From positions 1 through 64,000 of IMG/VR virus record IMGVR_UViG_3300020731_000015: 64,000 nucleotides of DNA; one strand, written 5' to 3'. Below are positions 3,067 through 61,195 of the stretch, one piece after another. The stretch comes from a virus. The notes under the pieces are model-generated. The model was given only the letters and a program-made list of their open reading frames with translations. It was not told the DNA's origin and ran no database searches. The stretch's first letter is position 1. Each line of letters begins with the position of its first letter. The translations under genes were made by a program, and so were the position numbers.

Positions 3067-3073
3067 CCCAACT

Positions 3074-35016: not shown

Positions 35017-35076
35017 ACAGAGATTTGGAAAGAGTGGGGTAAAGTAATGAACGAACTAACCACAAGGGAGTCGGCC

Positions 35077-40487: not shown

Positions 40488-40491
40488 AACA

Positions 40492-41841
40492 ATGGCTAGG
40501 GATTTCTTTGCTGAAGTAGAATCGTGGATTCGTGTTGCCAAGGGCGATGTGGTTGGCCACGAGTTTCACGGGAACCAGTATCAGTCGGCTAGCGAAACGA
40601 CACAAATCACTAGTGAATCGCAGACTAGCCCCGCTAGCCGTGCTTCGGAAATCGCTGCTAGGGCTAACGCACTAGTTGATGGTATCTGGCACGACCCGGG
40701 TTCACCAGTATTACGAGATGAACACTCTGAAATAGCAGATGAACACTTTGCGGAAGCCAATAGAGTTCGTTCTACCAACCCAGCGTTGGCTGACGCCCAC
40801 GTAGAGGCCGGCAACGCTCACGAGGATGCCCACAACGCTCACTCAATGGCACACACTTACATTAGTGATGAGAACGATGACCGTGCTGAAGCCGCAACTA
40901 GTAGGGCTATTCGGGCTAGTAGGAATGTCGAAGCACTAGCCAACGGAACTGCCACCGCCCCAAGTGCTACTCCAACACCTACCCCAAACCCCAATAAGTT
41001 CTCGCACCCTTATCAGACTCAATACAGCGCGCCAAACTACCTAGCGCAAGCGGCCAAGAATGTTGCTGATAGGCATCTAGATGTTGCGGTCGCTGGCGAT
41101 AAGCCAGAAGACCTAAACGCCCTTGCTGACGAGCACCAAAAAATTGCCGAGGGTCTTCGTGATGTCGCTGACCAGAAAGCGATTGCTGCTAGAACTGCCC
41201 AGACACAGGCGGCATCATTGGGCCGCCAAGACCCTGATGAGGGTGAGAAACTCGGAACCGGGCGTGAAGCAACGGAACGACCAGCCAACGTGACTGCTGA
41301 ATCATTAGCCGACAAGTATTCCCCAGCAGGCGCATCGAACTCGGATGCGAACCGTAATCGGATTGCCGGTATGACTTCTAGCCGTTTGGAAGACCTAAAG
41401 TTGGCCTCAAACTCGATGTCCAAACTTGCTGATATGAGTCACGGCTACGCATCTAGCCGAGTTCGTGGCGAATTGGGAAGTATCCGAGAGGCTATCCAAA
41501 GCCGAATCACAGACCTCAAGAACGAGGCAAAGGCCGGTGGCTCTAAGTTCGTTCAGGGTCAAGGAAACCAGCCAACTCGCACTTCTGCTGATTACAAGAA
41601 CCTGATTTCCAAACTAACTAGTGCTTCTAAGTCCGTTTCTGAACTACGCAACGCTATTCGTAGCACGAATCTCCAAAGCACGAACCACTACTACCACTCT
41701 GGTCAATTTGCCAAAGATGCCCCAGCCGTAGCCGATAAGGTGGCGGACGCTACACAGGCCTACAACGATTTCTATCGTGGAACTGATGGCAAGGATACGG
41801 GCTACTTCGCAAATGACCGATTTAAGAAGTCGGTTGGCTGA
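40492..41841 (+). CDS. Helical tag protein
   Basis: 449 aa. MARDFFAEVESWIRVAKG runs directly into tag KGDVVGHEFHGNQYQ, then the TQITSESQTSP linker and Ala/His-rich helices (VEAGNAHEDAHNAHSMAHT), a Pro/Thr linker near 165 and a second helical half. This is the simplest form of the helix-tag-linker-domain layout. Function unknown. Confidence 0.82.
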   Translation: MARDFFAEVESWIRVAKGDVVGHEFHGNQYQSASETTQITSESQTSPASRASEIAARANALVDGIWHDPGSPVLRDEHSEIADEHFAEANRVRSTNPALADAHVEAGNAHEDAHNAHSMAHTYISDENDDRAEAATSRAIRASRNVEALANGTATAPSATPTPTPNPNKFSHPYQTQYSAPNYLAQAAKNVADRHLDVAVAGDKPEDLNALADEHQKIAEGLRDVADQKAIAARTAQTQAASLGRQDPDEGEKLGTGREATERPANVTAESLADKYSPAGASNSDANRNRIAGMTSSRLEDLKLASNSMSKLADMSHGYASSRVRGELGSIREAIQSRITDLKNEAKAGGSKFVQGQGNQPTRTSADYKNLISKLTSASKSVSELRNAIRSTNLQSTNHYYHSGQFAKDAPAVADKVADATQAYNDFYRGTDGKDTGYFANDRFKKSVG

Positions 41842-41871
41842 AAAATCACAACCCTGTGAAAGAATAGAACT

Positions 41872-43092
41872 ATGGAAAACTTTGCTGCTGAAATCGAATC
41901 TTGGGTCCGAATCGCTAAGGGCGGGCCGGGCTCGGGAGATACCCCCGGTCACGAGTTCAATGGAAACCAATACACCGACGCGAGTGGTGCTATCGCGGGC
42001 ATTTCCAAACTTCGTGGGCTTTCAGGAGAACTCAAGTCAATAGTTGATGAACTAAATGGCAAGTTTTACCCACAGGGATTTACGCTGCGAGCCAAACCAG
42101 CAGATAAGTACGACAAAGACAGAATGTATGGGGAAAACTCATATAGTTCTTTTGCGCGCTATGTCACCCCAGAGAAACTAAAAGAAACACAGAGCAAACT
42201 TGAGGGGTTGGCCGACCAAGTGGATTCTCTAGTTGCTGGAGTTCGCCGTTCAGCAGCCGTTCACTCGGACACATCACCCACGATAGACAAGTTTGGTGGA
42301 GGCGAGTGGAAACTCGGACAAGACGAAGTTGGTAAGCACTTTTTAGAAGCCTCTAAGTCGCTTGAGGCTTTATCAGACAACTTGCGTGGTGCGGCATCCA
42401 TAATGAGCCACTCGGCAAACAAGGCGGTTTCAGTCAAATCACCTCGCCCAATGGCGGATGATGGCTATCCTGCTTTCGGCTCTTCCGAACCAAAAGCCTT
42501 TGACGCCGTTAAAGGCGAGGATGTTCTATCAACGAAGTTGGCGATTTCACGCTATTCGGGTCACGAAAGCAGTTTGGGAGAACAAGTTGATGCGATTTCC
42601 AAACTCTTTGACAAGTCGGAACTATCGCTTTCTCGTGCGGCTATCGCTATAGCGAAAGACCCCTCAAAAGAACCTAACGAGGCAAAGGCCGCTTCTGATT
42701 CAGCCAAGTTCGAGTCGAAGTCAAAGGAGTACACTGCTTCTGCTGATGCTATGGAAAAAGACATTGAGGCTAAGTACGATATGGTCAAAAAAGACTATGA
42801 CCTCGATGAAGACGGTAGGCCTATTCGTTATGGCCCCCAACACTCGGAAGAACTAGATGAATACGAAGAGGCAAAAGACAAGCAAGATGTCGTTCTCTCA
42901 CGCGCCAAAGTAGCGGCGGTATCGGCTAGTAATGCCTACTCTGTAATGGCTCACTTTGCTTCGCAGCGTGGCGACACCGAAGCCGCCAAGCAAGCGCAAG
43001 AAAAAGCCAGCGAAATGCTGAAAGTGGCGCGCTATAGCGAATCTCGCTGGCCAGATGCGGTCAATCATTACGATGACTACGATGGCGAATAA
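41872..43092 (+). CDS. Helical tag protein
   Basis: 406 aa. MENFAAEIESWVRIAKGG then GDTPGHEFNGNQYT, with Asn in place of His/Arg. Long helices follow with few sequence repeats. AAGAAT ends 6 bp before the ATG and no clear Shine-Dalgarno is seen. Function unknown. Confidence 0.8.
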   Translation: MENFAAEIESWVRIAKGGPGSGDTPGHEFNGNQYTDASGAIAGISKLRGLSGELKSIVDELNGKFYPQGFTLRAKPADKYDKDRMYGENSYSSFARYVTPEKLKETQSKLEGLADQVDSLVAGVRRSAAVHSDTSPTIDKFGGGEWKLGQDEVGKHFLEASKSLEALSDNLRGAASIMSHSANKAVSVKSPRPMADDGYPAFGSSEPKAFDAVKGEDVLSTKLAISRYSGHESSLGEQVDAISKLFDKSELSLSRAAIAIAKDPSKEPNEAKAASDSAKFESKSKEYTASADAMEKDIEAKYDMVKKDYDLDEDGRPIRYGPQHSEELDEYEEAKDKQDVVLSRAKVAAVSASNAYSVMAHFASQRGDTEAAKQAQEKASEMLKVARYSESRWPDAVNHYDDYDGE

Positions 43093-43098
43093 CAACAA

Positions 43099-45396
43099 AT
43101 GTCATCTATCCAAGATGTCCGAAAGTTCCTTGTTAGAGAACGGTTTGTGGTCCTCAAGGGCGACTATGTTGGCCACCCCTTTCGTGGAAACCAATACTCC
43201 GACTTAGGCTCTGCTGAACACCTACAAGAAGCGAATAGAGCCGCTAGAGAAACGGATTCGCTCAAAAGAGAGGGCCGTCGTAGGTATGGTCGTTCTCACG
43301 GATATTCCCTTGATGGCGACCTAGCAAAAGCATCGCTCGATGCCCTTGACCACGCGGCATCAGCAAAAGCCAAAGTAGGCGTTCTTAAAACAACAATATC
43401 TGAACTAGAAGAAAAGATTAAGAGAAACGGTGGCGACCCCAAAACTCCGATAGACGGATTCCACGACTCCGTTGAGGTGCGACAACTCAAAGACAACTTA
43501 CAGCGTTCCCAAGAACAGTTAAGCCATATAACTAGCGGGAATATGAAGTTTCGTATTTCTTGGAACAAATCACTAACTAGCGAGCAAATGAGCAAGCAGG
43601 CCGCATCCGCGCTGAATCGTGGATACAAGGAAGTTCTCAACAAATTATCTTCGATGCCCGGCGTGACTATGCCGAAAGCCAAGTCGCTTCTTGACAACAA
43701 GAACAACCCTCGCCCAGAGGCTCTAAAGGTTCTTCAGAACGATGTCAAGCAGATAGACTCAATCGCCAAGAAAGATGCCAAAACAGCGCAAGACGAAAGT
43801 GCGAGCCCAGAAGATAGGTATAACGCAACTGTCGGCTTGCGAAACTCATCGAAGAACGCCCTCTCTGCCCACACCTTTCTTGAGCAAGTCTATCGGATTA
43901 GTGGAGACACTACTAACCAAGATGCTGAAGCAAAAATCGTTGAGAAAGCAAAAGCGTCTATTGGGAAAGCGGACGAACATTACACAAATAATTTCGCTCA
44001 AATAACACTTTCATACGCCAAAGAGAGCATCGATAAGGCTAGTAAGACGATTGACCTAAGTGGAGTCAACCTATTCAGCATCAGCCCGGAACAGAAACAA
44101 ACGATTTCCGATGCAAAAAGTCTTTACTCGAACGCCTACAGAATACTTAGTGATGCCAGACTAGGCAATACTGATGAGGCTAGGTTGGCAAGAGACAATT
44201 CTCAACAAGCAAACGCACTCCTAAATACCGCTAGGTCTAACGAACTAAAAGCAACCCTAGACGGGTCAATGAAGAACATAGGTAAGGCAACTGCTGATAA
44301 GAGCGCCTATGAGAACACCCAAAAGGCCGAGCGCGATTATCGCACTTTCCAATCGGCGGTTGGCGAGGCTAAGTCGAATTGGAACGGCCTATTATCTAAC
44401 TACGGTGGTGCTTCATCACCAGAGTTAAATGCAAAAGCACAGAGCAACGCTATCGGATTAGCGAACCAACTAGAACTCGTACAAAAGACCGCTGGTTTGG
44501 CTATCGGTAAGGAATACCTAAAAACGGCTAGTGACTCCCTAAAGTTCGTTCGTGAAAACCTCGGAAACACAGACCCAGCCGTGGCGGAAAAGGCCGACAA
44601 ACTTATTACCGAAGCATCAAGTGCAGCCAATACAGCAAGAGGGCTATTCTCAAAAGAATCTCGCTACTATTCATCAAGCGCACCAGCGACAAGTGGTTTG
44701 GAAAACGAGTGGAATCAGGCATCTAGGTTTGAGAAAGAATGCACCGCCTACTCCAATGCTGTTCGTGGAACATCTCTTTTGGAAAAAGGTCTAGCGGAAA
44801 CAAGGAGTATGCCCGAAAAGGTGGATATGAGTGACATCGGCCAAGATGACCCCAATAGTTATGTATCCCTAAAGGCTAAAGCCGCGGGAACTTTGGATGA
44901 CTCGTTCGGCTACCTAACGCGCGGAGTTGAAGCAATCGACAAATCAGACCTTTTCAGCAAAGACGAAAAACAAGAACTTATTGGCAAACTTAAGGACCAA
45001 GCCACCCAAGCGGGTAAGGAACTTGCCGATATCAACTTTAAGTTCTATAGAGATGGTCTTGACTCTATGGTTGTCAACGGTAGTAAGGAATTGGAAAAAT
45101 CCAAAGACACCGATGACGATAACCCTATGTATGCCTCTACTAAGGCAGAAAAACTATTGGTGCAGGCTACCTATCTTGCTGATTCTATAGAAAACAGTAT
45201 CGCTCACAAGGAACTTAGTGGTTCGCTACTAGTTGGTCACTTCCAAGACAAGACCCCGCTACAACTCAATTCCGAGCAAGTAAAGCAACTCAAGGAAACC
45301 CTCGCCAAGCATAGTGTTGCTGAAATCCAGCAAAAAGCCGATGAAGCGAAGCAGGGCCAGCGCGCTTTCTATCGCCTACGCCAATACGCCCTGTAA
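43099..45396 (+). CDS. Large coiled-coil tag protein
   Basis: 765 aa. Short N-terminus VRKFLVRERFVVLKGD, then tag GHPFRGNQYSD near residue 30. The rest is almost all alpha-helical and rich in Ala, Lys, Ser and Glu, with no hydrophobic membrane segment. It lacks the AQITS linker of its neighbours. Could be an internal head or tape-measure-like protein; the tag favours the former group. Confidence 0.8.
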   Translation: MSSIQDVRKFLVRERFVVLKGDYVGHPFRGNQYSDLGSAEHLQEANRAARETDSLKREGRRRYGRSHGYSLDGDLAKASLDALDHAASAKAKVGVLKTTISELEEKIKRNGGDPKTPIDGFHDSVEVRQLKDNLQRSQEQLSHITSGNMKFRISWNKSLTSEQMSKQAASALNRGYKEVLNKLSSMPGVTMPKAKSLLDNKNNPRPEALKVLQNDVKQIDSIAKKDAKTAQDESASPEDRYNATVGLRNSSKNALSAHTFLEQVYRISGDTTNQDAEAKIVEKAKASIGKADEHYTNNFAQITLSYAKESIDKASKTIDLSGVNLFSISPEQKQTISDAKSLYSNAYRILSDARLGNTDEARLARDNSQQANALLNTARSNELKATLDGSMKNIGKATADKSAYENTQKAERDYRTFQSAVGEAKSNWNGLLSNYGGASSPELNAKAQSNAIGLANQLELVQKTAGLAIGKEYLKTASDSLKFVRENLGNTDPAVAEKADKLITEASSAANTARGLFSKESRYYSSSAPATSGLENEWNQASRFEKECTAYSNAVRGTSLLEKGLAETRSMPEKVDMSDIGQDDPNSYVSLKAKAAGTLDDSFGYLTRGVEAIDKSDLFSKDEKQELIGKLKDQATQAGKELADINFKFYRDGLDSMVVNGSKELEKSKDTDDDNPMYASTKAEKLLVQATYLADSIENSIAHKELSGSLLVGHFQDKTPLQLNSEQVKQLKETLAKHSVAEIQQKADEAKQGQRAFYRLRQYAL

Positions 45397-45444
45397 TTTA
45401 TCAACTGTGGTCTATTATCTATAACGAACGCAAGGGAGTTGCCT

Positions 45445-46866
45445 ATGTCTGATGAAATCCTCAACGCCGCATCCGAATGGATTGGCTCTGTGAACAAGGG
45501 TCTTTACGGCGCACTCTTTAACGAGTCGCTCACCTTTGGTCAGGACAATGCCGCTAAGGCCGAGTCACTCTACGCAGTTGCCCTCACTGCTGAAATGGCT
45601 GGCGACAAGGCTAAGGCGACTAACGCCCTTATGACTGCTTCGCAACTCCACCTCACTTCTGCCGACTACTACTTACGCGCCTCTTCTTACGGAACGATTG
45701 AGCGCACCCAACTACTCGCCCTCTCACAAGAACAAAATGCACTCGCACAAAAGGCGATTGAGGCCGTTCATCTTCTTGAGAACACTCCTGCTGAATCAAC
45801 TACCGATGCTGGTCTTGATGGCGTGACCGTTGATGAGGCCGACACTTACCCTATTGATACTGCGAACAACCTAGATGCCCGTGACCACGCACCCGACCTG
45901 CCAGATATGTATAAGTCAGTTGGCGGGTTTGCTGAAATCGCAGAAGACGGCGTAGAGGTTTGGAACTTCGACATCGCAAAGGGTGACACACCCGGCCACG
46001 AGTTCCGTGGAAATCAATACACCGAGGGAACTGGAAAACTATCTGGCCGTGCTGATGATGTTGCCGATAGAGCAAATGACGAGGGTGCTAGCAAGTCAAT
46101 CGCTGCGGAACACAAGAGCATCGCTGAAGGACACAAGAGTATCGCTATGGAACTCGCTGACCAAGCAGCCGAAATGCCACTAACGCAAGCGGAAAAACCA
46201 CTTGTGGCAAAAGCCGCTATTGACAACTTCAAGGCTTTTATTGCTCACGCTAACGCCGCAGACGCACACGAAGAAGCGGCAAAAGCACTTGCGAACGACC
46301 CACACTCGGAGAGTGCGCTAGATGCTGAGGAAGCAGCACAGCGCACTAGCGATGATGCCGCAACTGCGAGCGCCGAGGCTCACGGGGGAACCTCGATTGC
46401 GGCCAATGCTGAAAAGGTTGCCCCAACAAGCACTAGTGGCACGACTACCCAAATCACTAGCGAGGCTCGTAGCAACCCCTCAAGCGTTAAGTACATCAAG
46501 CCAGTCAACCTTACGGCCGCTAACACCTTGCGTGAAAGGGCCGCAAGTCTCGCTTTGGAAACAGGGCGCACCGTGCCAAACCAAGCCTTCGTGCAAGAAC
46601 ACACTCAAATCGCTAAGGAACACACGAAACTTGCAAAGGCAAATGACAAGGCTGGAAATAGCGATATTGCCGAGGCCCACCGAGATGCCGCTCACGCACA
46701 CGAGGTTGCCGCTGCTTTTACTAAGGATGCTATTGGGGTTTCACCAGACGGAACCGACCAAAAGGCTATTGATGCCGAGCAGAAGAGCCAAGAGGCCTTT
46801 ACCGCTAGTGGTGAGGCCGCTCGTCTTGAGAGAGCCAATATTTTCCCCGACACTAGTTCTTACTGA
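45445..46866 (+). CDS. Helical tag protein with internal tag
   Basis: 473 aa; the ATG lies 6 bp after AAGGGAG, and the TTG at 45439 is not preferred. An N-terminal TPR-like helical domain (about 1-115) is followed by an acidic linker, tag KGDTPGHEFRGNQYT near residue 178, and Ala/His-rich helices (AAEHKSIAEGHKSIAMELAD) with the TQITSEARSNP linker. Here the tag joins two domains rather than being N-terminal. Confidence 0.8.
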   Translation: MSDEILNAASEWIGSVNKGLYGALFNESLTFGQDNAAKAESLYAVALTAEMAGDKAKATNALMTASQLHLTSADYYLRASSYGTIERTQLLALSQEQNALAQKAIEAVHLLENTPAESTTDAGLDGVTVDEADTYPIDTANNLDARDHAPDLPDMYKSVGGFAEIAEDGVEVWNFDIAKGDTPGHEFRGNQYTEGTGKLSGRADDVADRANDEGASKSIAAEHKSIAEGHKSIAMELADQAAEMPLTQAEKPLVAKAAIDNFKAFIAHANAADAHEEAAKALANDPHSESALDAEEAAQRTSDDAATASAEAHGGTSIAANAEKVAPTSTSGTTTQITSEARSNPSSVKYIKPVNLTAANTLRERAASLALETGRTVPNQAFVQEHTQIAKEHTKLAKANDKAGNSDIAEAHRDAAHAHEVAAAFTKDAIGVSPDGTDQKAIDAEQKSQEAFTASGEAARLERANIFPDTSSY

Positions 46867-46879
46867 TACTAGAAAATCC

Positions 46880-47092
46880 GTGCGAAACCCCTTTGAGATA
46901 GAGGAACTCCTAAAATCCCCGCTTTACAAGCAGGTAGTTGACGGAGTGGTGAAACAGCCTCGCTATGTGCCTTTGGCCGAGCAACGCAAACACCCACAGG
47001 ATTTCGGCTGGCTAGATGATGCCGTGCCAGATAACTATGTATTCCCAGAGGAAGACTCCGAAGACCCTATGGGCGAATCACCTCTAGGGTAG
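46880..47092 (+). CDS. Hypothetical small acidic protein
   Basis: 70 aa from GTG (VRNPFEIEELLKSPLYKQV...), ends with acidic PEEDSEDPMGESPLG. The much longer frame from 46322 is a shadow of the preceding gene. No tag. Function unknown. Confidence 0.65.
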   Translation: MRNPFEIEELLKSPLYKQVVDGVVKQPRYVPLAEQRKHPQDFGWLDDAVPDNYVFPEEDSEDPMGESPLG

Positions 47093-47156
47093 GTAAGCAA
47101 TAGCGATTTGGAAATCGTAGTGTAGCCTTTCTCGTAGAGCGAAAGGAACTCCTTTT

Positions 47157-49148
47157 ATGAATATTGGCGACCGATTCAAGCCGGTTTACACCCCACGCAA
47201 CCAAGCATCTATTGATGCCGAGATTGCCAGCAAGCAGATTGCTAAGACTGCTCGTAGTGAGGTTGAGGCTATGTCAGCACTAGACAACGCTAACTTCCGT
47301 CTTCGTAAGGCTACAGAGTCTTTGAGCGAAGCACAGGTGGCTTACTTTGCCGCCGTTGAGAAGTCAGCAAGCAACGCTACTGAACTCCGTGCTGCCTACA
47401 ACAACGCACTTGCCGGATTCCGTGACAGCGAGAAAATCGCCGCTGTCGCTGCTGATGAGGTTCGCAAGGCTAAGGCCGCTCTCGCAGGTCTTCGCAAGAA
47501 GGCTTCTATGGAAGATGACTATGAGGATGACTCATCAGACGATGACTCATCAGAGTACGATGAGGATGAGAAGAAGAAGTCTTTTGGTGGCTCTAGCGAC
47601 CAAGAAGATGCTGCTGATGCTATGGCTGGCGATGACCCAGAGGGCGCAGTAAAGGTTCTTGACTCACTTGCCGACACCCACGAGCGCCTCGCAGGTATGG
47701 CTCGTAAGACTGGCAATATGGATGCTCACTCGGCTCACGCTGCTGAAGCCGGTCGCATTCGCTCAAAGATTGTTTCTCTTCGTGGCAAGGCCAACAACAA
47801 GGAAGTTGTAAAGTCTGCTTCAGATTTCATCACTAAGCGTGAGTTCTCTGACACCAAGCGCGCTCAACTCGCTGATTTGCTTGAAGACTGGAAAGTTTCT
47901 AAGGCTGCAATGTTGATTGTTTGCCCATCTTGTATGGGTGACGGTGGCTCGTGCTGTGAAAACGGAATGATTAGCCCCGATGACCTTTCAGACCACGTTC
48001 AGTTGGCAGACGAGATGCCAGTTGCTATGAGTGCTTTCAGCACCTCTTCGCTTCTGACCCGTGACTTCCAAAAGTCGGCCGCTTACCAAGAGTATGTCTT
48101 GGCTAAGGGTGATGTTGATGGTCACGAGTTCCACGGAAACCAGTACACCGCAGGTGGTGGCGGAAAGACTGCTCAAGTCGCTAGCAACTCGCAGACCGCA
48201 CCAAAGACCGATGCCGAGCGTTTGGGTAATGTCCCGGGCGCTAGCAAGGCACTACTCACTCAAGATGCGATAGACAAGTTCCAAAGTGGCAAGATTGACC
48301 ACAAGGCTTTGGCAAATGCTCACGATGCTCTTGCTGCTGCCCACCTTTCTGCCGCTAAAGAGGCACGGCTAGTTGGTGACAAGAAAGGTATCGCCCTCCA
48401 CATCGCCGCCGCCAACGCTCACCTTTCTGCCGCTACTGCCCACCTAACTGCAGACGGAGAGGGCTACGAGCCCTATGTTGACAAAAACGGTAATGAGGTC
48501 AAGACCGAGGGTATGTCATACGGCGAACTAGCCAACTTGCCAACCGCTTCAGACCGACTTTCAGCAAACGCCGCTGATGCTTCTAAGGCCGCAGACAAGC
48601 ACGATGTAGAGATGGAGCAGGAAACCGCTCAAATCACTAGCGAAGCCCGCACCGTTCCAATCAAGCCCGGCCAAGCCGCACAGACCCGTGACCCCAACTG
48701 GAACCCACGCACTAGTGGCGCGTTGATAAATATGCCAAAGGCGGGAACCCAAAAGGGTTTTAACACCATCGTTGGTGGCTACGAAAAGAACATTCCAGTT
48801 CAACTTGGACTCGCTAAGCAAGCAGAGGAAGAATCAAAGAAAGCCGTTGCTGATGGCGACCTTGAGACTGCCACTGCGAAGATGGAAGAGGCTGTGAAGG
48901 CTTATGAGGCCGCCGCCGGAAACGCTCGTGGAATCTTTATGATGCACGAGAAGTTCCAAGGTCAGGTCAAGCAGGCAAACCCTGAAGACCCAAAGGTAGC
49001 CGCTTTCCGTGAACAGGCTCGTTCTATTCGTGCTAACGAAAAGGCTTCGGCACAGGAAAAGGCTGCTGAACTTGGAAAGAAGTTTAAGGAACAAGAGGCC
49101 GCCAAAATCGCCGCTGCTAAGGATGCCCAGAAAATCGTAGGCGAGTAA
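47157..49148 (+). CDS. Tag protein with Cys cluster and coiled coils
   Basis: 663 aa behind GAAAGGAACTCC. N-terminal coiled coil (1-125), acidic Asp/Ser stretch near 125-140, a helical domain, a zinc-finger-like CPSCMGDGGSCCENG near 260, then tag KGDVDGHEFHGNQYT near 318, AQVASNSQTAP and AQITSEARTVP linkers and Ala-rich helices. The Cys cluster recalls DnaJ-type CxxCxGxG repeats but is only half of one. Function unknown. Confidence 0.8.
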   Translation: MNIGDRFKPVYTPRNQASIDAEIASKQIAKTARSEVEAMSALDNANFRLRKATESLSEAQVAYFAAVEKSASNATELRAAYNNALAGFRDSEKIAAVAADEVRKAKAALAGLRKKASMEDDYEDDSSDDDSSEYDEDEKKKSFGGSSDQEDAADAMAGDDPEGAVKVLDSLADTHERLAGMARKTGNMDAHSAHAAEAGRIRSKIVSLRGKANNKEVVKSASDFITKREFSDTKRAQLADLLEDWKVSKAAMLIVCPSCMGDGGSCCENGMISPDDLSDHVQLADEMPVAMSAFSTSSLLTRDFQKSAAYQEYVLAKGDVDGHEFHGNQYTAGGGGKTAQVASNSQTAPKTDAERLGNVPGASKALLTQDAIDKFQSGKIDHKALANAHDALAAAHLSAAKEARLVGDKKGIALHIAAANAHLSAATAHLTADGEGYEPYVDKNGNEVKTEGMSYGELANLPTASDRLSANAADASKAADKHDVEMEQETAQITSEARTVPIKPGQAAQTRDPNWNPRTSGALINMPKAGTQKGFNTIVGGYEKNIPVQLGLAKQAEEESKKAVADGDLETATAKMEEAVKAYEAAAGNARGIFMMHEKFQGQVKQANPEDPKVAAFREQARSIRANEKASAQEKAAELGKKFKEQEAAKIAAAKDAQKIVGE

Positions 49149-49174
49149 GAGCCTTAGTGTTCTAAGGTTTACTC

Positions 49175-51460
49175 GTGAACTACAAAGATATTCTCTCTAT
49201 CCTTAAGGCTGGCGTTGCTGGTCAATCTGGTGATAAAGACGGTCACGACTTTCGTGGCAATCAATGGACTGTTATGGGCCCTTGGGGTCAACCAGTTCCA
49301 CGACCCCGTGACCCAGCGACTAACAAGCCCCTAAAGGGCGCAGCGTTGGCTGCTGAATTGGCACGACTCTATCCGAGCCCGAACACGCCTATTCCAAACG
49401 CCCCTAAAACGACTGCCAAACCAGCCCCACCAAAGGTATCTGGCTCGACCCCTAAATCACCAAAAGCCCCCAAAGCACCAAAGGCTACGCCAGCACTCGC
49501 ACCAACCCCTACACCGGTCGCTACAACCCCTACAACGCCCCCTAAGCCCGTTGATGAAGCACCAAAGGCCGAAGCCCCAAAGGTAGAGGAAGTCAAGCCA
49601 GAAGAGCCTAAAAAGGTCGAGGATAACCGAGTTATCACGGAAGAGGGTCAGAAGTCTATTCAGGAACGAATTGCCGATGCTGAAAAGTGGGAACCCAAAA
49701 CTGATTTGGAAAAGCGGGCTTCCGAAGCCGCCTCGAAAATCGCCGCCGCAATCCTCGTTCCAAAAGAACGCCGACCCCTATTCGTAAAGAATCTCACTAC
49801 GGTTCTCACCCAGCCAAAGGCTTTTAGAGATGCCGTTGCACAAGCCAAAACCGTAGAAGTCAACGACCGTGTTAGAGACAACGCAGCGATGCTGAAAATG
49901 ATTGGCTTTACGGGTCTTCCAAAGGTCGTATCGGAAGCAGAGTTTAAGGCCACACCCGGCAAGGTCGCCTACTCTGGTCTTTCGTACACTCGGAGTTCTA
50001 CCCAAACACTTCAGCAGAAGTTAGCGACGCTTTACAACGGGGAGTTCCCACGCTACGGCGGTCCTATGTTCGGTGCGGCGTTCTACACATCCGAGAGCAA
50101 AGATGTGCCGGTTTCATACGCCCAAAAGAATGGGGCTAGTGGAACAAATACCTGTATCTTTCGCAACAAGTTAGTTGACCCCAACAATGTCTATAACGCA
50201 TCTGGCAACGGCCCAATGATTAAATTGGATGTCTTATCAGCAACGGCTAGGGAAGACCACGGCAAGTATTCGGCTATGGACCACCCTGACTACAATCTCC
50301 GAGAAATTATGTCGGATGCTGGATACACCGATGACGAAATCAACCGAATTGATGGCAAGGGAAGCCAGCAAGGTATCTTTAGTGGAGACAACAACTGTAA
50401 GAGTATCGGCCCAGCCCTAGCGGGATACGATGCGCTGAAAGATACCCACCACAACTACACAATGGTTCTAAATCGTGGGGCTATGGTCCTACCTGACACC
50501 TACGCAACCAATATCCAACATCAAGGTTCGTTTGGGCCAGAGGGAGCAGCAAATGTGTCTGACAATGTTCCTGTGGATTCGGCTTACGCAATCTCCGTGC
50601 CTACGCCAAAAGCACCCGAAGATGATGAGCAAGATGTCGCTAAAGGTGAATCTGACGGACACCCTTATCGTGGCAACCAATATGGGCCGGGCAAGAGTGA
50701 TGGCACTCCTGAAAAGCCAAAGCCACTACCCGGGTCTGAAGAAGAAACGGAAGAAGTAGTAAAGAAACTCACCGAGGATATGAAGTTGCCTCCTGCTGTT
50801 ATCCGTATGGGTATCCAAGTAGCCCGACCACTTCTCGCAGAAGCCGCTAAATACGAACCGGCTATCACCAAAGCGATTTCTCAATCCGTAAAAGAGAGTG
50901 GCGGAACTCGAAAGCGCGCTCAATCTGCCGTAAAGTCACTCTCTAGTGCTACCGAAAAGGCGGTTAGGGATACCGCCGATTCTGTCCAAAAGGGCTTGAC
51001 TGCTGAAATCACATCTAACTCCCTTTCCAAAGAAGCCGGAGAAATCCACGACCTCGTTCGCTATACGGTTATCTGGCCACAAAAGGAAATAGCAAGCGGC
51101 GCGAACAAGATGATACAGAGCCTCGCCAATAAGGGCTTCGTTCCATACAAAGACGAGAACGGCACGGAGATGGTGAAAAACTACTTCCACGATAGGCCGG
51201 GAAACTCATACCGAGGCATCAATGCCAACTTCGTTGACCCCAAGAGTGGAATGGTCTTTGAGGTTCAGTTCCACACACTCCAAAGCCTTGATACTGCTGA
51301 AAAGATGCACAAAATATATGACAGTATTCGCAAACTAGATAAGACCGACCCAGTTTACGAAAAGGGGCAGGAAAAGATGCGAGCGGGCTTCGCACAGGTA
51401 AAAATCCCACCGGGAATTGACTCGGTTGGAAATGTCTGGTTCAAGAAGGCTATAATTTAG
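49175..51460 (+). CDS. Tag protein with ART-like and RelA/SpoT-like domains
   Basis: 761 aa from GTG. Tag QSGDKDGHDFRGNQWT near residue 17, then a Pro/Ala/Lys-rich linker (50-155). Residues about 240-440 form an ADP-ribosyltransferase-like domain (VAYSGLSYTRSS; FGAAFYTSESKDVPVSYAQ). A second tag KGESDGHPYRGNQYG lies near 490. The C-terminal domain has DLVRYTVIW (about 626), NSYRGINANF (about 679) and EVQFHT (696), the pattern of RelA/SpoT-type pyrophosphokinases (YRG, E-x-Q). It might make alarmones or pyrophosphorylate tRNA in the host; activity is not shown. Confidence 0.78.
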   Translation: MNYKDILSILKAGVAGQSGDKDGHDFRGNQWTVMGPWGQPVPRPRDPATNKPLKGAALAAELARLYPSPNTPIPNAPKTTAKPAPPKVSGSTPKSPKAPKAPKATPALAPTPTPVATTPTTPPKPVDEAPKAEAPKVEEVKPEEPKKVEDNRVITEEGQKSIQERIADAEKWEPKTDLEKRASEAASKIAAAILVPKERRPLFVKNLTTVLTQPKAFRDAVAQAKTVEVNDRVRDNAAMLKMIGFTGLPKVVSEAEFKATPGKVAYSGLSYTRSSTQTLQQKLATLYNGEFPRYGGPMFGAAFYTSESKDVPVSYAQKNGASGTNTCIFRNKLVDPNNVYNASGNGPMIKLDVLSATAREDHGKYSAMDHPDYNLREIMSDAGYTDDEINRIDGKGSQQGIFSGDNNCKSIGPALAGYDALKDTHHNYTMVLNRGAMVLPDTYATNIQHQGSFGPEGAANVSDNVPVDSAYAISVPTPKAPEDDEQDVAKGESDGHPYRGNQYGPGKSDGTPEKPKPLPGSEEETEEVVKKLTEDMKLPPAVIRMGIQVARPLLAEAAKYEPAITKAISQSVKESGGTRKRAQSAVKSLSSATEKAVRDTADSVQKGLTAEITSNSLSKEAGEIHDLVRYTVIWPQKEIASGANKMIQSLANKGFVPYKDENGTEMVKNYFHDRPGNSYRGINANFVDPKSGMVFEVQFHTLQSLDTAEKMHKIYDSIRKLDKTDPVYEKGQEKMRAGFAQVKIPPGIDSVGNVWFKKAII

Positions 51461-51462
51461 GT
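51451..51462 (+). promoter_or_regulatory. -10 element of a leaderless start
   Basis: Consensus TATAAT at 51451-51456 inside the end of the preceding gene, 6 bp before the ATG at 51463. A TTGGAA 19 bp upstream is the only -35 candidate. Confidence 0.55.
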
Positions 51463-51678
51463 ATGGATTGGATTTACTACGAACGCCGATACAAAGACGG
51501 CTCTTTGGCCGCTGGGTATCGCTATGACAACGAGCATCGTGGTGAAATCCTTACGGCTAACGGCTGGCAACACTCCGACAACTTCTTCCACAAACTAATC
51601 ACGGGCGACAACGCCCTACGCCAATTAGAGGGAATCCCCGGTTGGGCCTATAACGAACAGGGAAACTTGATTCAGTAG
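51463..51678 (+). CDS. Hypothetical protein
   Basis: 71 aa (MDWIYYERRYKDGSLAAGYR...), aromatic and without tag. Probably leaderless. It breaks the run of tag genes. Function unknown. Confidence 0.7.
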   Translation: MDWIYYERRYKDGSLAAGYRYDNEHRGEILTANGWQHSDNFFHKLITGDNALRQLEGIPGWAYNEQGNLIQ

Positions 51679-51716
51679 GGTAAAGTATCGGGAATCCTAG
51701 TTTGGAAAGGCCCGTT

Positions 51717-52604
51717 ATGACTTCGGACATCAATGCTGAAATCTTGGCGTGGGTCCGACTAGCAAAGGCTGGCGATACCAAAGGTCACGCTTTTCACGGC
51801 AATCAGTATCAAGAGGGCGAGAGTGGTGGCGAAGCCCCAGCCCGACAGGTAGATTCGAGTCGCTATCAGGCAAATGGTCGCTACGGAACTGCTGAAACCA
51901 CCGAATCAATCAAGCCGACAGTTGCCGAAAAGCCAAAGCCCGCCGAACTTCCAAACCACGACACCCGCATAAAGAGCGACCCAGCCGATACCTCTCCAAA
52001 AGGCATAAAGAATTGGGCTCGAGAAATCCACTTCGCGCTCACTCGTGGCGAGCAACCCATTATCTCCGCCCAGCACTTCCCCGCCTTGATTGCTGAAATG
52101 GCCCGAACGAACTCAAAGGGCAACGACATAACCAACATCCGTATTGACGGAACTCGCCTTATGGGATTAGACGGAAAGGGCTACTCTCGCAGCAAAATGC
52201 CCCAAATTGACGAGAGCGAACGCCCCCAATTCCTAAAGGATATTGAGAAGTCAGACGGAATCACCGTAAAGCCAATGTCCGTTGACCCCACGACCCTAAA
52301 GCCAATCCAAAAGGAAATCAACGGCGACAAGTCTGGGGCGATTATGAAGAAGAACCCAGATGGTATTCCCGACAATATGCGAATCTTGGTTTCCAAAGAT
52401 GGTTATGTAGTGGATGGACACCACACTTGGGCCGCTGCCGTTGCGCTGAAATTGGCAGGAAAGTCGGCTCAATTCCCGGTCTATCAACTCTCCTGTGACT
52501 GGAAGAAAGCGATGGATGTCGGCCTCGCTTGGGATAAGGAACACAATGTTCCCCTACAAGGATTTGATACCAAGCCACCGGTTTTATCAAAATCCGTGAA
52601 ATAA
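51717..52604 (+). CDS. Tag protein with ParB-like domain
   Basis: 295 aa from the ATG behind GGAAAGG. Helix DINAEILAWVRLAKA, tag GDTKGHAFHGNQYQ, a Pro/Lys linker (40-90), then a domain with LKPIQKEING and ILVSKDGYVVDGHHTWAAAV. LxPxQ...I and VDGHHxWxAA resemble ParB/sulfiredoxin-like folds, some of which bind CTP or phosphorylate or cut. A paralogous domain is in 53009-57256 (residues about 735-915). Activity unknown. Confidence 0.75.
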   Translation: MTSDINAEILAWVRLAKAGDTKGHAFHGNQYQEGESGGEAPARQVDSSRYQANGRYGTAETTESIKPTVAEKPKPAELPNHDTRIKSDPADTSPKGIKNWAREIHFALTRGEQPIISAQHFPALIAEMARTNSKGNDITNIRIDGTRLMGLDGKGYSRSKMPQIDESERPQFLKDIEKSDGITVKPMSVDPTTLKPIQKEINGDKSGAIMKKNPDGIPDNMRILVSKDGYVVDGHHTWAAAVALKLAGKSAQFPVYQLSCDWKKAMDVGLAWDKEHNVPLQGFDTKPPVLSKSVK

Positions 52605-52611
52605 TAGGATT

Positions 52612-53019
52612 ATGACGAACGCATCAGATTTCAGCAGAGGCAATTTGCTTGGCCCAGATGGGGTTTATCGTGAGTTCATCAAGGGTGATTTCTCTGGCCA
52701 CGTCTTTCGTGGCAACCAGCACTCGGTCGGTGGCGTAGGTCACTTCGACCCTTGGCGCGCAACCCTAATGACTATCTGTGCTTCGGGCCACCAGAACACC
52801 ATCGGCGTTCCCCCAACTTGGATTGAGCGTGATGCTCAAGGTAAGCCAACTGGTCAGTTCACGGCGGGAACCCAGAGCCGTATGTGCGCTACTTGTTCCA
52901 AACCTCTACCTAACCGTTGGAAGTTGATAAACGGACAGAAGTTTATTCAGCCCGACAAGCAACCCGTGACGAGCGCAAACCAATGGCTTTACGGTGGAGT
53001 AAAGAACTATGTCAAGTAG
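52612..53019 (+). CDS. Small tag protein with Cys pairs
   Basis: 135 aa. Tag KGDFSGHVFRGNQHS near residues 24-38; later ICASGHQN and MCATCSKP could bind zinc. 11-bp overlap with the next gene. TAATAG lies 4 bp before the ATG. Function unknown. Confidence 0.75.
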   Translation: MTNASDFSRGNLLGPDGVYREFIKGDFSGHVFRGNQHSVGGVGHFDPWRATLMTICASGHQNTIGVPPTWIERDAQGKPTGQFTAGTQSRMCATCSKPLPNRWKLINGQKFIQPDKQPVTSANQWLYGGVKNYVK

Positions 53020-56000
53020 TTTGGAAAAGCAAGTCTTCCAGCCGAACTTCGTAAAGTTCACCAACACGGAAATCGTTGACCGCAACCCTATTTCTGGCAC
53101 GACTTTCTTTGGAAACCAGAACAACGGCTTCCAACTCGTTAAGTTTGCTGATGGCTCTAACGGAGTTGAGAAGCGACTCAAGCATTGGGTCGGGAACAAG
53201 ACTGGTCGCCTCTATCGTGGCGAACTTCTCGGTGCGCAGGAATACCTAGCGGCTCGTGTGGGCGAAGTAATGAACGCCCCTATCCGTGACTGCCACTTCA
53301 CTAGCAAAGACGCACAGAGTATCGTTATGCCGTTTATTGATGGGCGCTCTGGTGCTGAAATGAACGATAAGGATATCCCCGACACTCCACAAGGAGTAGC
53401 CCTACGACTATTTGACTACCTAGTAGCCAACGCAGACCGACGCCCCAAGAATATTATGTTTGCTGATAACGGAAACATAGTGGGTATTGACCACGCCCTT
53501 TGTAATTTCCGGCCTCGTGAGCCTAAGCCAGAGTTGATTACTATCCTTTGGAACGGCGGAGTCACCCTAAGTAGTTTGGAAATCCTAAAGCCAAAACTGC
53601 TTGCTCTCGGTGGTTTGTTTTCCCAAATGGGTATGACAGAAAAGTTTGGAAACCTAATCGGCAACCTCGACCGATTGATTGCGGCTTTCACCAAAATCCA
53701 AAATATCGCGGTGGCTAAGGCCGCCTTTGACTCACAGACCCCACCACAAGCCGTTCAACAAGCAGCGAAACAGGCTTTGGAGTGGATAGCAGACGGCAAG
53801 GCTGGTAGGAACTTTACCTCGGTAGGTCGTAAAAGGGCTTCAGACCTCGCTCACGGACACCCAGTATCCCTAGAAACCCTAAAGCGTATGAAAGCCTACT
53901 TTGATAGGCACGGCGTTGATAAGCAGACCCCACATTGGAACGAGCCAAGCCCCGGCAAGGTGGCGTGGTATGCGTGGGGTGGAGATGCTGGCTACTCGTG
54001 GGCTAAGAAGATGGTCGCTCGTGCTGAAAAGGCCGCAGAAGCGGTCCGTAAAGATGCCGACACCGATAGGAAAAAAGCGGACGCGAAACTAAAGGAAGCA
54101 GAAGCACTAGCGGCAGAAGCCTTTGATTTTCGCCGTAGGGAACACTTTGAGTCGGCCGCCAACGCTCACGCCAATGCCTCACGCTTATTCTTTGAGGCTT
54201 CCAAACTCTACGGAAATGACGAGAATGGTGATGCCGTAAGCGCACTCGCTAGGGGAAACTCGGAGAAAGACCTAGCCGAATCCGCCCGATTTACAGACCA
54301 GATGGGCGAACAACACAGTCCTGCTGAAATCCACGATGGAACTTGGGTGGATGGGGGTGCTTGGGCTGGCGGAACCGACCCGGTGGAAAAGGGAGATGTC
54401 GTAGGACACGAGTTCCACGGGAATCAATGGACCGGAGATGAATACGACTTCAATAAGGATTCTTACGACCACAATGCTTGGGGTTCGCCACTCAAGTATG
54501 ACTCTTGGACAGGGGCAACGACCGAAGACAAGTCAGAAAAAGTTGGTGATTATGTCTTTAATTCTAGGTTGCCTAGTAGCGAATACATCGCTTATATGAA
54601 GTCGCACTTTTCATACAACAACATACCAACGCCAGACAAACTAACCACTAACTGGAAAGATGAAATGGCGAAAGCACGGAGTAAGTATGTCGTTAGTGAT
54701 GTATGGGCTACGAAAATAAACGACAAATTGCGAAAAGACAAAGCACTTAGCCCCAAGCAACAAACGGAGTTTGAGGCCGTAAAGAAATGGGCCGAGTCAG
54801 AAACGATTATCAAACCGGTATCGCTATACCGAGTGTCTATCTTGCCTGATGCTGTTTTGGACAAACTGCAGCCCGGAACTTCCTACTTGGAAAAAGGATT
54901 CCAATCCACTTCCATATCACCATCAGATATGATTAATTACGGAGTATCCCGAAGATTGGGTGGGGATACCCATACGGCTATTAGCGGCAATAGGGTTTAT
55001 TTTAGGCTCAACGCACCAAAGGGAACGAAAGCCGTTGACGCTTACTCGGAAGAAGTGGTATTGCCACCCAACACGCAAGTTTCAGTCACTAGCCGAGCAA
55101 CCGACAAGATGGGTAATACCTACATCACGGCAGATATCAATAATAGCACGGAAGTCAAAAAGGGCGACTCGCCCGGTCACGAGTTTCACGGCAATCAGTA
55201 CGAGGCAGGTATCGTTTCCAAACTAGATGCTGGCGAGAGCCCCGAAATCGCTTCTGCTGATTTGCCCGGTCTGGTTTCTGGCATCCACGACTTAGGTTCT
55301 CGTGGTCACGGATACGACATTACGAACCTAAAAGTTGATGGAGAAAAGCCTTTCCAAACTGACCACGATGCTGATTTGCTTCGTGAGCATATGCCCCAAA
55401 TACTCCCAAGCCAACGAGCAGAGTTCCTCAAGGATATTCAGAGCGAATACGGAATTGTAAGCAAGGCAGAAGAGGTCAACCCCAAAACCCTAAAGCCCTC
55501 ACAAACAGAGATTGATGGTTGGAAGACGGGTGGCGTTTATAAGGAGTTTGCTGAAAAGGGCATACCCGCCGAGCGCGCTCCACTCGTTTCTAGCGACAAC
55601 TACATTATTGACGGACACCACTATTGGTCGGCGGCAATCGCCCTAAAAGCCGCAAACCCCGACTACAAACTCCCTATTCGCCGTTTATCCTGCGACCTAG
55701 ACACGGCACTAAAGGTTGCTAACCAATGGCACGACAAGGTTGGCAACCCACGCCTATCGCTGGGCGATACCCAAGTTTCCAAATCAGGAGTAGCCGGACA
55801 ATCTGGTGATAAAGAGGGCCACGCCTTTAGAGGCAACCAATGGTGGATGATGGGGCCAGACGGAGTTCCAGTTCCACGCCCTCGAGCACCTAAAACCGAT
55901 ACGGGAGACAAGACACCAGCGGCCCCTAAAGCCCCAAGGGTATCAACCCCACGCGCTCCAAAAGCCACGCCAACTGCTGAAACGCCTAAGCCTATCTACC

Positions 56001-58172: not shown

Positions 58173-58237
58173 GTCGAAAGTCGCTATAGTGGATGCCGAA
58201 AGGCGTTCCTTTCCAAATCATCAGTATCAGCAAAAAG

Positions 58238-58266
58238 TCCTCACGAAAGGTTCGTGGGGATTTTTT
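58238..58266 (+). terminator. Intrinsic terminator
   Basis: TCCTCACGAA (58238-58247), loop AGG, TTCGTGGGGA (58251-58260; one G-U), then T6. It ends the Rpf-like gene transcript. Confidence 0.9.
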
Positions 58267-58276
58267 GTTTATTGGC

Positions 58277-58305
58277 TTGATTTGCCCCACCACATCAGTT
58301 ATCAT
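58277..58305 (+). promoter_or_regulatory. Promoter of the C5 methyltransferase, leaderless
   Basis: TTGATT, 17-bp spacer, TATCAT; the ATG at 58313 is 7 bp after the -10 and has no Shine-Dalgarno. Confidence 0.7.
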
Positions 58306-58312
58306 TAGTCCT

Positions 58313-59071
58313 ATGGCTAACGAAACCAAACAGATGACTGCGGTTTCACTATTTGCGGGCGTGGGCGGTTTCGACTTAGCACTAGAGCGCAACGGAGTGA
58401 ATGTCGTAGCGGCAGTAGAAATTGACAAACACGCACAAGCAGTGTTGGCAAAGCAGTTCCCAAATACAAAACTATTCAACGATGTCACGGAGGTATCGGG
58501 TGAGCAACTTATTTCAGCAGGATTTGACCCAAGAAACGGAATCCTTGTCGGTGGATTCCCCTGCCAAGACCTTTCCGTTGCCGGAAGACGTGCAGGGCTG
58601 GCTGGAAAGAGAAGCGGCCTCTTCTACGAAGTCGCGCGCATCATCGAAGAACTCCAACCGGAGTGGTTCGTCCTCGAAAATGTCCCCGGCCTTTTATCAA
58701 GTCAGCAGGGAGCAGATATGGGAGCAGTTGTCGGAACGCTGGTTGACCTCGGGTACGGCGTCAGTTGGCGGGTGTTGGATGCTCAATACTTCGGAGTTCC
58801 CCAGCGGCGGCGTCGTGTCTTCATCGTTGGCCGACGTTCTGGAGACTGGAGAAGTACCGCAAAAGTATTATTTGAGCGCGAAAGCGTGTGCGGGGATTCT
58901 GACCAGAGCCGAGCGACGGGGGAAGAAACTACCCGAACCGCTTTTACAAGCATTGAAAGCACAAGCGGCGGATTACAAGCCGGAGTAGCAAAGGGGGGAG
59001 TGTCCGTCACAGATGAGAACACGACCAACCCTTTTACAAGTCAGGATTTGCTGAATACTCAACAGGTGTAG
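58313..59071 (+). CDS. C5-cytosine DNA methyltransferase, catalytic half
   Basis: 252 aa from the leaderless ATG. Motif I FAGVGGFD (14-21), motif IV GFPCQDLS with nucleophile C84, motif VI ENV (122-124) and motif VIII PQRRRR (163-168) are intact. It transfers a methyl group to cytosine C5. The ORF stops in the target-recognition region before motifs IX and X; these occur three times in the ORFs that follow. A C_CCT_TTT slippery heptamer at 59029-59035 would shift ribosomes -1 into the next piece (59017-59361). Active enzyme probably needs frameshifting or assembly with a separate C-terminal module. Confidence 0.9.
   Translation: MANETKQMTAVSLFAGVGGFDLALERNGVNVVAAVEIDKHAQAVLAKQFPNTKLFNDVTEVSGEQLISAGFDPRNGILVGGFPCQDLSVAGRRAGLAGKRSGLFYEVARIIEELQPEWFVLENVPGLLSSQQGADMGAVVGTLVDLGYGVSWRVLDAQYFGVPQRRRRVFIVGRRSGDWRSTAKVLFERESVCGDSDQSRATGEETTRTAFTSIESTSGGLQAGVAKGGVSVTDENTTNPFTSQDLLNTQQV
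58482..58988 (+). CDS. Overprinted ORF inside the methyltransferase
   Basis: 168 aa in another frame within the methyltransferase gene. Its segments DSPAKTFP, CWMLNTSEFPS, LADVLETGEVPQKYYLSAKA and CAGILTRAERRGKKLP resemble a recurrent phage protein family (LSDVLETGxVPxxYxLSxKACAGILRRAExRGKxLP) usually found next to DNA methyltransferase genes. The methyltransferase frame over the same bases (AKVLFERESVCGDSDQSR) is also family-typical. Either both frames are translated or one is a fossil of the other. Start not certain. Confidence 0.5.
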   Translation: MSRRYRVSNLFQQDLTQETESLSVDSPAKTFPLPEDVQGWLEREAASSTKSRASSKNSNRSGSSSKMSPAFYQVSREQIWEQLSERWLTSGTASVGGCWMLNTSEFPSGGVVSSSLADVLETGEVPQKYYLSAKACAGILTRAERRGKKLPEPLLQALKAQAADYKPE

Positions 59072-59361
59072 GCACACTACGCGCCTCATCTTCGCAAGAA
59101 GACCACATTCTTGTTGAGCAAATCGGCTTTTCCGGTAGCAACTTTAACGGTTATGCTGAAACGCCCCAAATGGCTACCCTCGTGGCGACCGATAGCAAGA
59201 GAAGCGACAAGGTAGTTGTAGAGCGCCGAGTCAACTCTATGTATGGTGAAAAGATTGCCCCTACCCTCACGGCAAGTGGCAACGACTACATCGGGCTAGG
59301 CGTTCCTATGGTTTCCGTTGATACGCAAGAGCCAGTATTCGGTGCTTTTGAGGAACTATGA
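59017..59361 (+). CDS. Methyltransferase recognition-domain piece (-1 frame)
   Basis: No good start codon of its own. It reads PFYKSGFAEYSTGVGTLRAS, then NGYAETPQMATLV and KIAPTLTASGNDY, the GTLRA/PTLTA-type repeats found in target-recognition regions of phage C5 methyltransferases. It is in the -1 frame relative to the catalytic half and joins it at the slippery site. Its TGA overlaps the ATG of the next module. An alternative is a disrupted gene. Confidence 0.6.
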   Translation, partial: EHDQPFYKSGFAEYSTGVGTLRASSSQEDHILVEQIGFSGSNFNGYAETPQMATLVATDSKRSDKVVVERRVNSMYGEKIAPTLTASGNDYIGLGVPMVSVDTQEPVFGAFEEL

Positions 59362-60410
59362 GCGAGAACGACCCAATCGTTATCCCAATCCAAGACGGTC
59401 GGGGTATGAATCAGAAGCAAAACGGATTTGGAGTTGGTGAAGAGGGCGACCCTGCTTACACACTCACAGCCGTTGGCGGTGCTTCGGTAGCCGTTGCCTT
59501 TGATGAATACAACTTCTCGATTAGCGATACTCACCACACACTTCGGGCCGGAACTCCACAATCCACTGGCGTTATCCAGCCTGTCGTATTTGAGCCGGGT
59601 GCTATGAGCCGTATTGAGGGTCACGACCCTGCTGAAATAGCCCCAACCCTACGAGCCCATATGGGAGACAATCAGTTGGCACTCTTTTACGAAGAAGAAC
59701 TACCAGCAACCCCTACGGGGAATCTAACCCCTTGGCCAGAGATGGGTCAGCCAAATATGGTTTATCGCACCGATACCGTGACTAGGACAGTCGATAACAA
59801 TCGCCACCTAATCCTCACGCAAGCGGGGCAAGAAACGCCAACTGCTGAAAACAATTCAGAGACAGGTTGCCTAACCCCTTGGCCCGAAATGCCCCAGCCC
59901 TACAGAGTTTACGGAACAGAAACGGTGACAAGAACTGTGGACAACAACCGACACAACATACTTACGACTATTCCTATTGACATCAGAAACGCAACACGAC
60001 CACCAGACGGAGAACAAGGTATGGGTATTGGCGACAACGGCGACCCCTCAACAACAATCACCACAGGCCGAGTGCCGGGTGTATTCGCAGAGGGCGAGGA
60101 ATCATTCTCGGTCTATGAGAACCAGCGTTCAGAGGTTCGTGAGCAAACGGTATTTAACGCCCTAACGCTCGGTGGCGGAAAGCCCGGTCAGGGATACCCC
60201 ACAATCAGAACTCGCTCGGTAGTTCGCCGCCTCACTCCTATCGAGTGCGAGCGCCTACAGGGATTCCCAGACGACCACACGCTTCTCCGTGCTGATGGCA
60301 AGGAACAAGCCAATGTCCATCGCTACAAGCAGATGGGTAATGCCGTTGCTGTTCCTGTTGTTGAGTGGGTAATCGCCGGAATCGTTGAGGTTCACAACAA
60401 AGATGAGTGA
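59358..60410 (+). CDS. Methyltransferase recognition plus C-terminal module 1
   Basis: 350 aa. Many GDPAYTLTA, APTLRAHMGDNQ and GGGKPGQGYPTI-type repeats (recognition region), including a duplicated stretch around LTPWPEM and TVTRTVDNNRH, then motif IX VRRLTPIECERLQGFPDDH and motif X YKQMGNAVAVPVVEW. No motif I or IV, so it cannot methylate alone. ATGA overlap with the preceding piece. Probably the main specificity and C-terminal subunit for the catalytic half. Confidence 0.82.
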   Translation: MSENDPIVIPIQDGRGMNQKQNGFGVGEEGDPAYTLTAVGGASVAVAFDEYNFSISDTHHTLRAGTPQSTGVIQPVVFEPGAMSRIEGHDPAEIAPTLRAHMGDNQLALFYEEELPATPTGNLTPWPEMGQPNMVYRTDTVTRTVDNNRHLILTQAGQETPTAENNSETGCLTPWPEMPQPYRVYGTETVTRTVDNNRHNILTTIPIDIRNATRPPDGEQGMGIGDNGDPSTTITTGRVPGVFAEGEESFSVYENQRSEVREQTVFNALTLGGGKPGQGYPTIRTRSVVRRLTPIECERLQGFPDDHTLLRADGKEQANVHRYKQMGNAVAVPVVEWVIAGIVEVHNKDE

Positions 60411-60804
60411 GAATAAAGACGAAATGGTGATGCCGACCCTATTGGCTGGTATGGGCGATTCTGCCGTAGGAACGACCCAAGATGCCTACATACTCAAGTA
60501 TCTTGCCTATTCGATTAGGGAAGATGCCAAAGCAAATACCTTTAGCGCCACACCCGTAGATGTTGCTGGCACTATTTCAGCACATCAACCAAGCGTTCAG
60601 AGCCACCACGCTCAAGTGTTCGCTATCCACCCAAAGCCACGCCGTCTTCTACCCGAAGAGTGCGAGCAACTACAAGGCTTCCCTATCGGGTGGACAGACA
60701 ACGGCCAAATTGACCGATACCGATTTAAGCAAATGGGCAACGCAGTCGCCGTGCCAGTCGTTGATTGGGTCATCAAAGGAATCGTAGATGTCCACAACCG
60801 ATAA
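60403..60804 (+). CDS. Methyltransferase C-terminal module 2
   Basis: 133 aa from the ATG overlapping module 1 by 8 bp. A short recognition part (VMPTLLAGMGDSAVGTT, AGTISAHQPSV) is followed by RRLLPEECEQLQGFPIGW (IX) and FKQMGNAVAVPVVDW (X). Second copy of the module. Confidence 0.8.
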   Translation: MSENKDEMVMPTLLAGMGDSAVGTTQDAYILKYLAYSIREDAKANTFSATPVDVAGTISAHQPSVQSHHAQVFAIHPKPRRLLPEECEQLQGFPIGWTDNGQIDRYRFKQMGNAVAVPVVDWVIKGIVDVHNR

Positions 60805-61195
60805 CGACAGTCTTTATGTGACCAATCGTAGGACTGGCGCTGTAGATGAACACAAGGGCGTTTCACCAACCTTGTTGGCGTTTATGGGAACCGGTGGCGG
60901 AAATGTTCCAATTCTCGGCGGCCAACACCCACACGCAGCCGTAGGAGAGGGCGTTTCACCAACTCTTACTGCCGCTTCAGGTGGCGGTGGCGGTCACACG
61001 CCAGTAATCGCTAGTGAACTATCGGTTCGCCGTTTGACACCAGAAGAGTGCGAAGCCCTACAAGGTTTTCCTCGTGGCTGGACAGAAATCAACTCCACCA
61101 CCAACCGATACAAGGAAATGGGAAATGCCGTAGCCGTGCCTGTGGTGAATTGGATTATTGAGGGAATCGTAAAGGTTCACAATGAGCGTAAGTAG
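60788..61195 (+). CDS. Methyltransferase C-terminal module 3
   Basis: 135 aa, 17-bp overlap with module 2. Recognition part with VSPTLLAFMGTGGGN and VSPTLTAASGGGGGHTP, then VRRLTPEECEALQGFPRGW (IX) and YKEMGNAVAVPVVNW (X). Third copy. The three modules share IX-X but differ in the recognition part, suggesting exchangeable specificity. Confidence 0.8.
   Translation: MSTTDNDSLYVTNRRTGAVDEHKGVSPTLLAFMGTGGGNVPILGGQHPHAAVGEGVSPTLTAASGGGGGHTPVIASELSVRRLTPEECEALQGFPRGWTEINSTTNRYKEMGNAVAVPVVNWIIEGIVKVHNERK

Follow-up and report, generated by a model that had tools for sequence, protein, structure and literature searches.

Can a single stretch of phage DNA encode two proteins under selection in different reading frames, and if so, what is the second protein and how is it related to the first? 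The question was raised by a locus in a 64,000-nucleotide stretch (hereafter the window) of the 75,270-base IMG/VR virus record IMGVR_UViG_3300020731_000015. The plus-strand frame from 58313 to 59071 (frame 0) encodes the N-terminal half of a C5-cytosine DNA methyltransferase (MTase), with motifs I-VIII in 252 aa (PF00145, E 1.8e-57; TIGR00675, E 1.6e-56; PHROG 116, E 3.8e-71). The frame one base ahead (+1, hereafter alt) is open from 58422 to 58988, and the ATG at 58482 gives a product of 168 aa. The original prediction was that two family-like proteins are read from the same DNA at 58482-58988, and this observation is confirmed, as both translations are present in the sequence as given. In this register the alt codon positions 1, 2, 3 are MTase positions 2, 3, 1, so that the silent third position of the MTase is the most informative second position of the alt frame.

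In order to determine whether the alt frame is conserved, a first scan was made with the alt core, which identified at least 599 related viral contigs. All 80 that were kept, as well as eight phage records, hold the core in the same +1 register over an MTase or MTase fragment. In this set the alt ORF is open on average 118 codons upstream of the core, against 51 in codon shuffles. Because these loci were chosen on the alt frame, we repeated the search with no ASCERTAINMENT by the alt frame, using only the MTase residues of 58331-58834. Of the 51 loci with a canonical motif VIII obtained in this way, 48 visibly carry the same +1 core, and a core HMM hits the +1 ORF of 65 of 66 non-redundant homologues. 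In this set the entropy of the MTase third codon position is about 1.6-1.85 bits over most of the upstream part, falls to about 1.0 from about 58703 and to 0.40 near 58883, while first-position entropy rises to 1.65, the signature of a protein read in +1.

Dual coding was then tested with the MTase amino acids held fixed and synonymous codons shuffled. The +1 frame of the 66 homologues is expected to hold 207 stops between about 58529 and 58945 (minimum of 200 shuffles 177), whereas one was observed. Alt identity exceeds the shuffles by z of about 7 or more, mostly above 10, from 58511, by 28-52 from 58709, and by 62-85 at 58871-58951. In 40 independent close pairs, changes silent in the MTase but altering alt occur at 0.123 per opportunity before the alt gene (double-silent rate 0.131), 0.082 (0.173) in the alt N-part, 0.053 (0.173) around motif VIII, and 0.026 (0.135) in the core, a fall from 0.94 to 0.19 of the double-silent rate. 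Changes altering the MTase but silent in alt run at 0.0585 in the core, 0.43 of the double-silent rate. In the stretch 58700-58835, which comprises the MTase region through motif VIII and the alt N-part, both frames are strongly constrained, with MTase-silent/alt-changing and MTase-changing/alt-silent rates of 0.30 and 0.12 of the double-silent rate, respectively. Both frames are thus under purifying selection at the protein level, the alt frame more strongly in the core (about 58835-58955), where it is the MTase frame that is relaxed, and there is no general slow-down of the DNA. A near-identical virus (L089; 99.5% over 58174-60395 of the window) differs from the window at three core positions, all of them alt-silent and two of them MTase-changing. 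MTases carrying the corresponding segment in frame, used as a negative control, show no +1 stop avoidance and little or no excess conservation (z below 5). The condition that had been named in advance as counting against overprinting, conservation of only one frame with third-position changes breaking the other, was examined in these data and did not refute it.

The start of the alt gene is best placed slightly downstream of the ATG. Constraint and stop avoidance begin at about 58511-58529, and a Shine-Dalgarno (SD) sequence, GGAGG at 58489-58493 (GGAGGT scored at 5-nt spacing), precedes GTG 58500, so that the product, ending at TAG 58988, is probably 162 aa rather than the 168 aa from ATG 58482, which remains the alternative start. 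Of the 66 homologues, 27 have an SD match of 6 nt or more ahead of an alt start, often TAAGGAG seven bases before TTG or ATG at the same place, against 2 of 63 in the +2 control frame. Although the GTG start and SD are not equally strong in every homologue, this favours internal initiation over frameshifting.

The alt protein has an N-terminal region of ~100 residues modelled by AF2 with low confidence, followed by a mostly helical region at residues ~108-157 with pLDDT of about 80-98; the model is thus confident only for ~50 residues. Comparison of the model with the PDB gave no Foldseek match at E <= 0.001 and a best VIA-align Z of 3.0, and searches of Pfam, NCBIfam and PADLOC returned no convincing family. 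The alt protein of the window does match PHROG 16143 (E 9.3e-9). The alt core domain (58827-58967; LADVLETGEVPQKYYLSAKACAGILTRAERRGKKLPEPLLQALKAQ; motif LxDILE..VPxKYYLSxKA) resembles the segment that ordinary phage C5-MTases (L257-L336 in our set) carry in frame after motif VIII, for example LLRDVLENDVPEKYYLSDKMLKWLTRHSEKRG in L257. Profile-profile comparison with hhalign gave Prob 97.4 over 35 columns, with E 1.1e-11 for this single comparison. One in-frame relative (L320) aligns with M.HhaI 148-210 (E 2.6e-10), that is, from motif VIII into what we take to be the hinge and the start of the target-recognition domain (TRD). By the two HMMs, the segment is in frame in 43-49 of 49 ordinary MTases and never in their +1 frame, and in the +1 frame in 45-65 of 66 overlap-type MTases and never in their frame 0. 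The HMMs were built from these sets and the in-frame examples were fetched by a motif resembling the core, so the positives are in-sample and the zeros are the informative part.

The interpretation in the original prediction is therefore partly supported. True overprinting under dual constraint holds, as does the claim that both products belong to recurrent phage families (PF00145 for the MTase, PHROG 16143 for the alt product). However, the two are not simply one family turned into the other by a frame change, as was proposed. The alt core is the hinge/TRD-start segment of C5-MTases themselves, which sits in frame in ordinary members and out of frame here, without the direction or steps of that change being shown by these data. 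Neither is the arrangement rare, as the prediction held true overprinting to be, since in addition to the at least 599 viral contigs it was found in 282 stretches of bacterial genomes. It also lies unannotated in dmt of phage P1 (dmt 66412-68676 of NC_005856, alt ORF 66713-67201), and a search with the alt protein of a relative matched 448 Escherichia plasmid records, those listed lying under Dam-family methyltransferase genes. No free-standing copy was found among the alt-selected loci, the MTase-selected loci or 80 genome loci, over 200 loci in all; the few apparent exceptions are contig ends, runs of N, variant motif VIII or a broken MTase frame. In the mycobacteriophages Thibault (L006) and KashFlow (L096), an HNH endonuclease gene inserted at motif VIII lies in a third frame, while the MTase frame stays open across the insertion and the alt core persists as a short free ORF, annotated as gp104 in Thibault.

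In the window the MTase is followed by three tandem C-terminal halves with motifs IX-X, at 59358-60410 (PF00145 profile positions 269-322, E 1.1e-11), 60385-60804 (E 7.4e-10) and 60788-61195 (E 2e-12), all on the plus strand. L089, with the corresponding region at 1318-3490, has one extra 117-aa C-module inserted between modules 1 and 2 at a short repeat, suggesting gain and loss of modules by recombination. Related phage contigs (L009-L018, L037, L043, L044, L049, L058 and L097-L112) mostly have the MTase split into an N ORF and a C ORF, the latter usually in +1 relative to the former and thus in the frame of the alt gene, while a few (L099, L107 and L113) are fused. In Pseudomonas abyssi (L183) and in L254, another homologous locus, the alt ORF runs on into motif IX-X while frame 0 stops without it. 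Elsewhere in the window, nineteen copies of a peptide motif like KGDxxGHEFHGNQY occur across many large plus-strand ORFs (880-3134 and 37247-55817), and a 634-aa ORF (35047-36951) has long runs of serine (SSSSSSSS) in its middle.

We consider it more likely than not that the +1 frame is a separately translated gene, with ribosomes starting at GTG 58500, and that its product is a small subunit that binds the MTase and supplies in trans the hinge/TRD-start segment missing from the MTase chain, as needed for target recognition or activity. The analysis itself establishes purifying selection on both frames, which makes the existence of the gene under selection near certain, together with the initiation signals, the homology of the core to the in-frame segment and the mutual exclusion of the two arrangements; that the protein is made, that it binds the MTase and that methylation requires it are inferences from sequence. 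C5-MTases tolerate such a division, as M.AquI and M.EcoHK31I are naturally two polypeptides, and fragments of M.SssI complement best when split between motif VIII and the TRD (PMC3404938; for the natural split of M.EcoHK31I also PMC3439449). On the other hand, frame 0 of many overlap-type MTases is otherwise complete (motifs I-X) and could work alone. This, together with the discrete and separately initiated nature of the alt protein and the persistence of the core as gp104 in Thibault, leaves room for an independent factor, for instance an autorepressor, inhibitor or DNA-binding regulator derived from the MTase segment. We regard this as unlikely, since an independent regulator does not predict a gene never found away from an MTase and present exactly where the in-frame segment is missing.

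Programmed +1 frameshifting near the end of motif VIII would restore the ancestral order of motif VIII, hinge and TRD, and in L183 and L254 the resulting hybrid MTase would be complete. It is nevertheless improbable, as alt-frame constraint and stop avoidance begin ~300 nt upstream of the end of motif VIII, an SD-start pair is enriched there, and in most genomes the hybrid would lack motifs IX-X. That the conservation is merely a by-product of MTase conservation, codon usage, base composition or an RNA/DNA signal, with no protein made, can be all but dismissed. Parts of the alt N-terminus are indeed dictated by conserved MTase motifs, but the shuffles hold the MTase protein and codon usage fixed, the in-frame control gives no signal, and an RNA/DNA signal would need a constraint sparing exactly the double-silent sites, which evolve at normal rates in the core. 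A broader reading remains possible, although we hold it only tentatively: nested +1-frame subunits may be a general and overlooked feature of phage C5-MTases, the hinge/TRD-start, motif IX and motif X having each moved between overlapping frames in different lineages, so that the working enzyme, including P1 Dmt, would be assembled from two proteins of one stretch of DNA.

Long same-strand overlapping genes with demonstrated dual selection are few in prokaryotes and their phages, and here the source of the conserved domain of such a gene can be named, namely the hinge/TRD-start of the enzyme family itself. The finding predicts that many phage cytosine MTases studied or expressed as single chains may lack a subunit. 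No open-access paper describing an overlapping gene in phage C5-MTases was found, which does not prove it unknown. PHROG 16143, labelled DNA methyltransferase, matches 97 of 106 alt proteins (best E 2.3e-15) and, near full length, the alt ORF of one related locus (L128; E 1.2e-28). It appears mislabelled, as the label describes the overlapped gene rather than this protein. In the ordinary phage C5-MTases the same segment (LKDILE..VDEKYYLSDK) is in the MTase chain, and the +1 frame is closed and unconstrained.

A second overlap was found with PHROG 1008. In Clostridia the hits of this profile are also +1 ORFs (174-248 aa) over a different C5-MTase subfamily (L361-L450), in the same register and starting near motif IV. 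In 48 viral homologues chosen on the MTase, the +1 frame is again essentially stop-free over about 170 aligned codons and conserved beyond shuffles, with z up to 53. These alt proteins have a longer C-terminus, with motif IX in 41 of 68 loci; motif IX lies in the +1 ORF and motif X in frame 0 in 31 of the 68, the motifs sit in different frames in different genomes, and frame 0 has both in none. The N-termini of the two alt types look alike, but a common ancestry is not supported, as the hhalign score of 54.2 equals that of codon-shuffled controls (54.5 +/- 1.8) and is no more than MTase homology forces.

Among characterized enzymes, M.AquI resembles the window in that motifs I-VIII and IX-X lie on separate polypeptides, but two polypeptides share the variable region in M.AquI (PMC3404938), whereas the window adds a nested +1 gene and three tandem C-terminal modules. 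M.EcoHK31I is likewise a C5-MTase with a second polypeptide, the gene for which is reported to overlap the large one in another frame (Lee et al. 1995), as the alt gene does in the window and over 200 loci. The small polypeptide of M.EcoHK31I carries motif IX and the large one the predicted TRD (PMC3404938); motif IX in the +1 ORF with motif X in frame 0, as in the PHROG 1008 type, is the motif layout described for M.EcoHK31I. The alt protein of the window, in contrast, ends before any motif IX and carries the hinge/TRD-start segment, while motifs IX-X lie in frame 0 or in separate ORFs, and it may thus represent an overlapping-gene partner like that of M.EcoHK31I in principle, but with a different part of the enzyme on the small protein.
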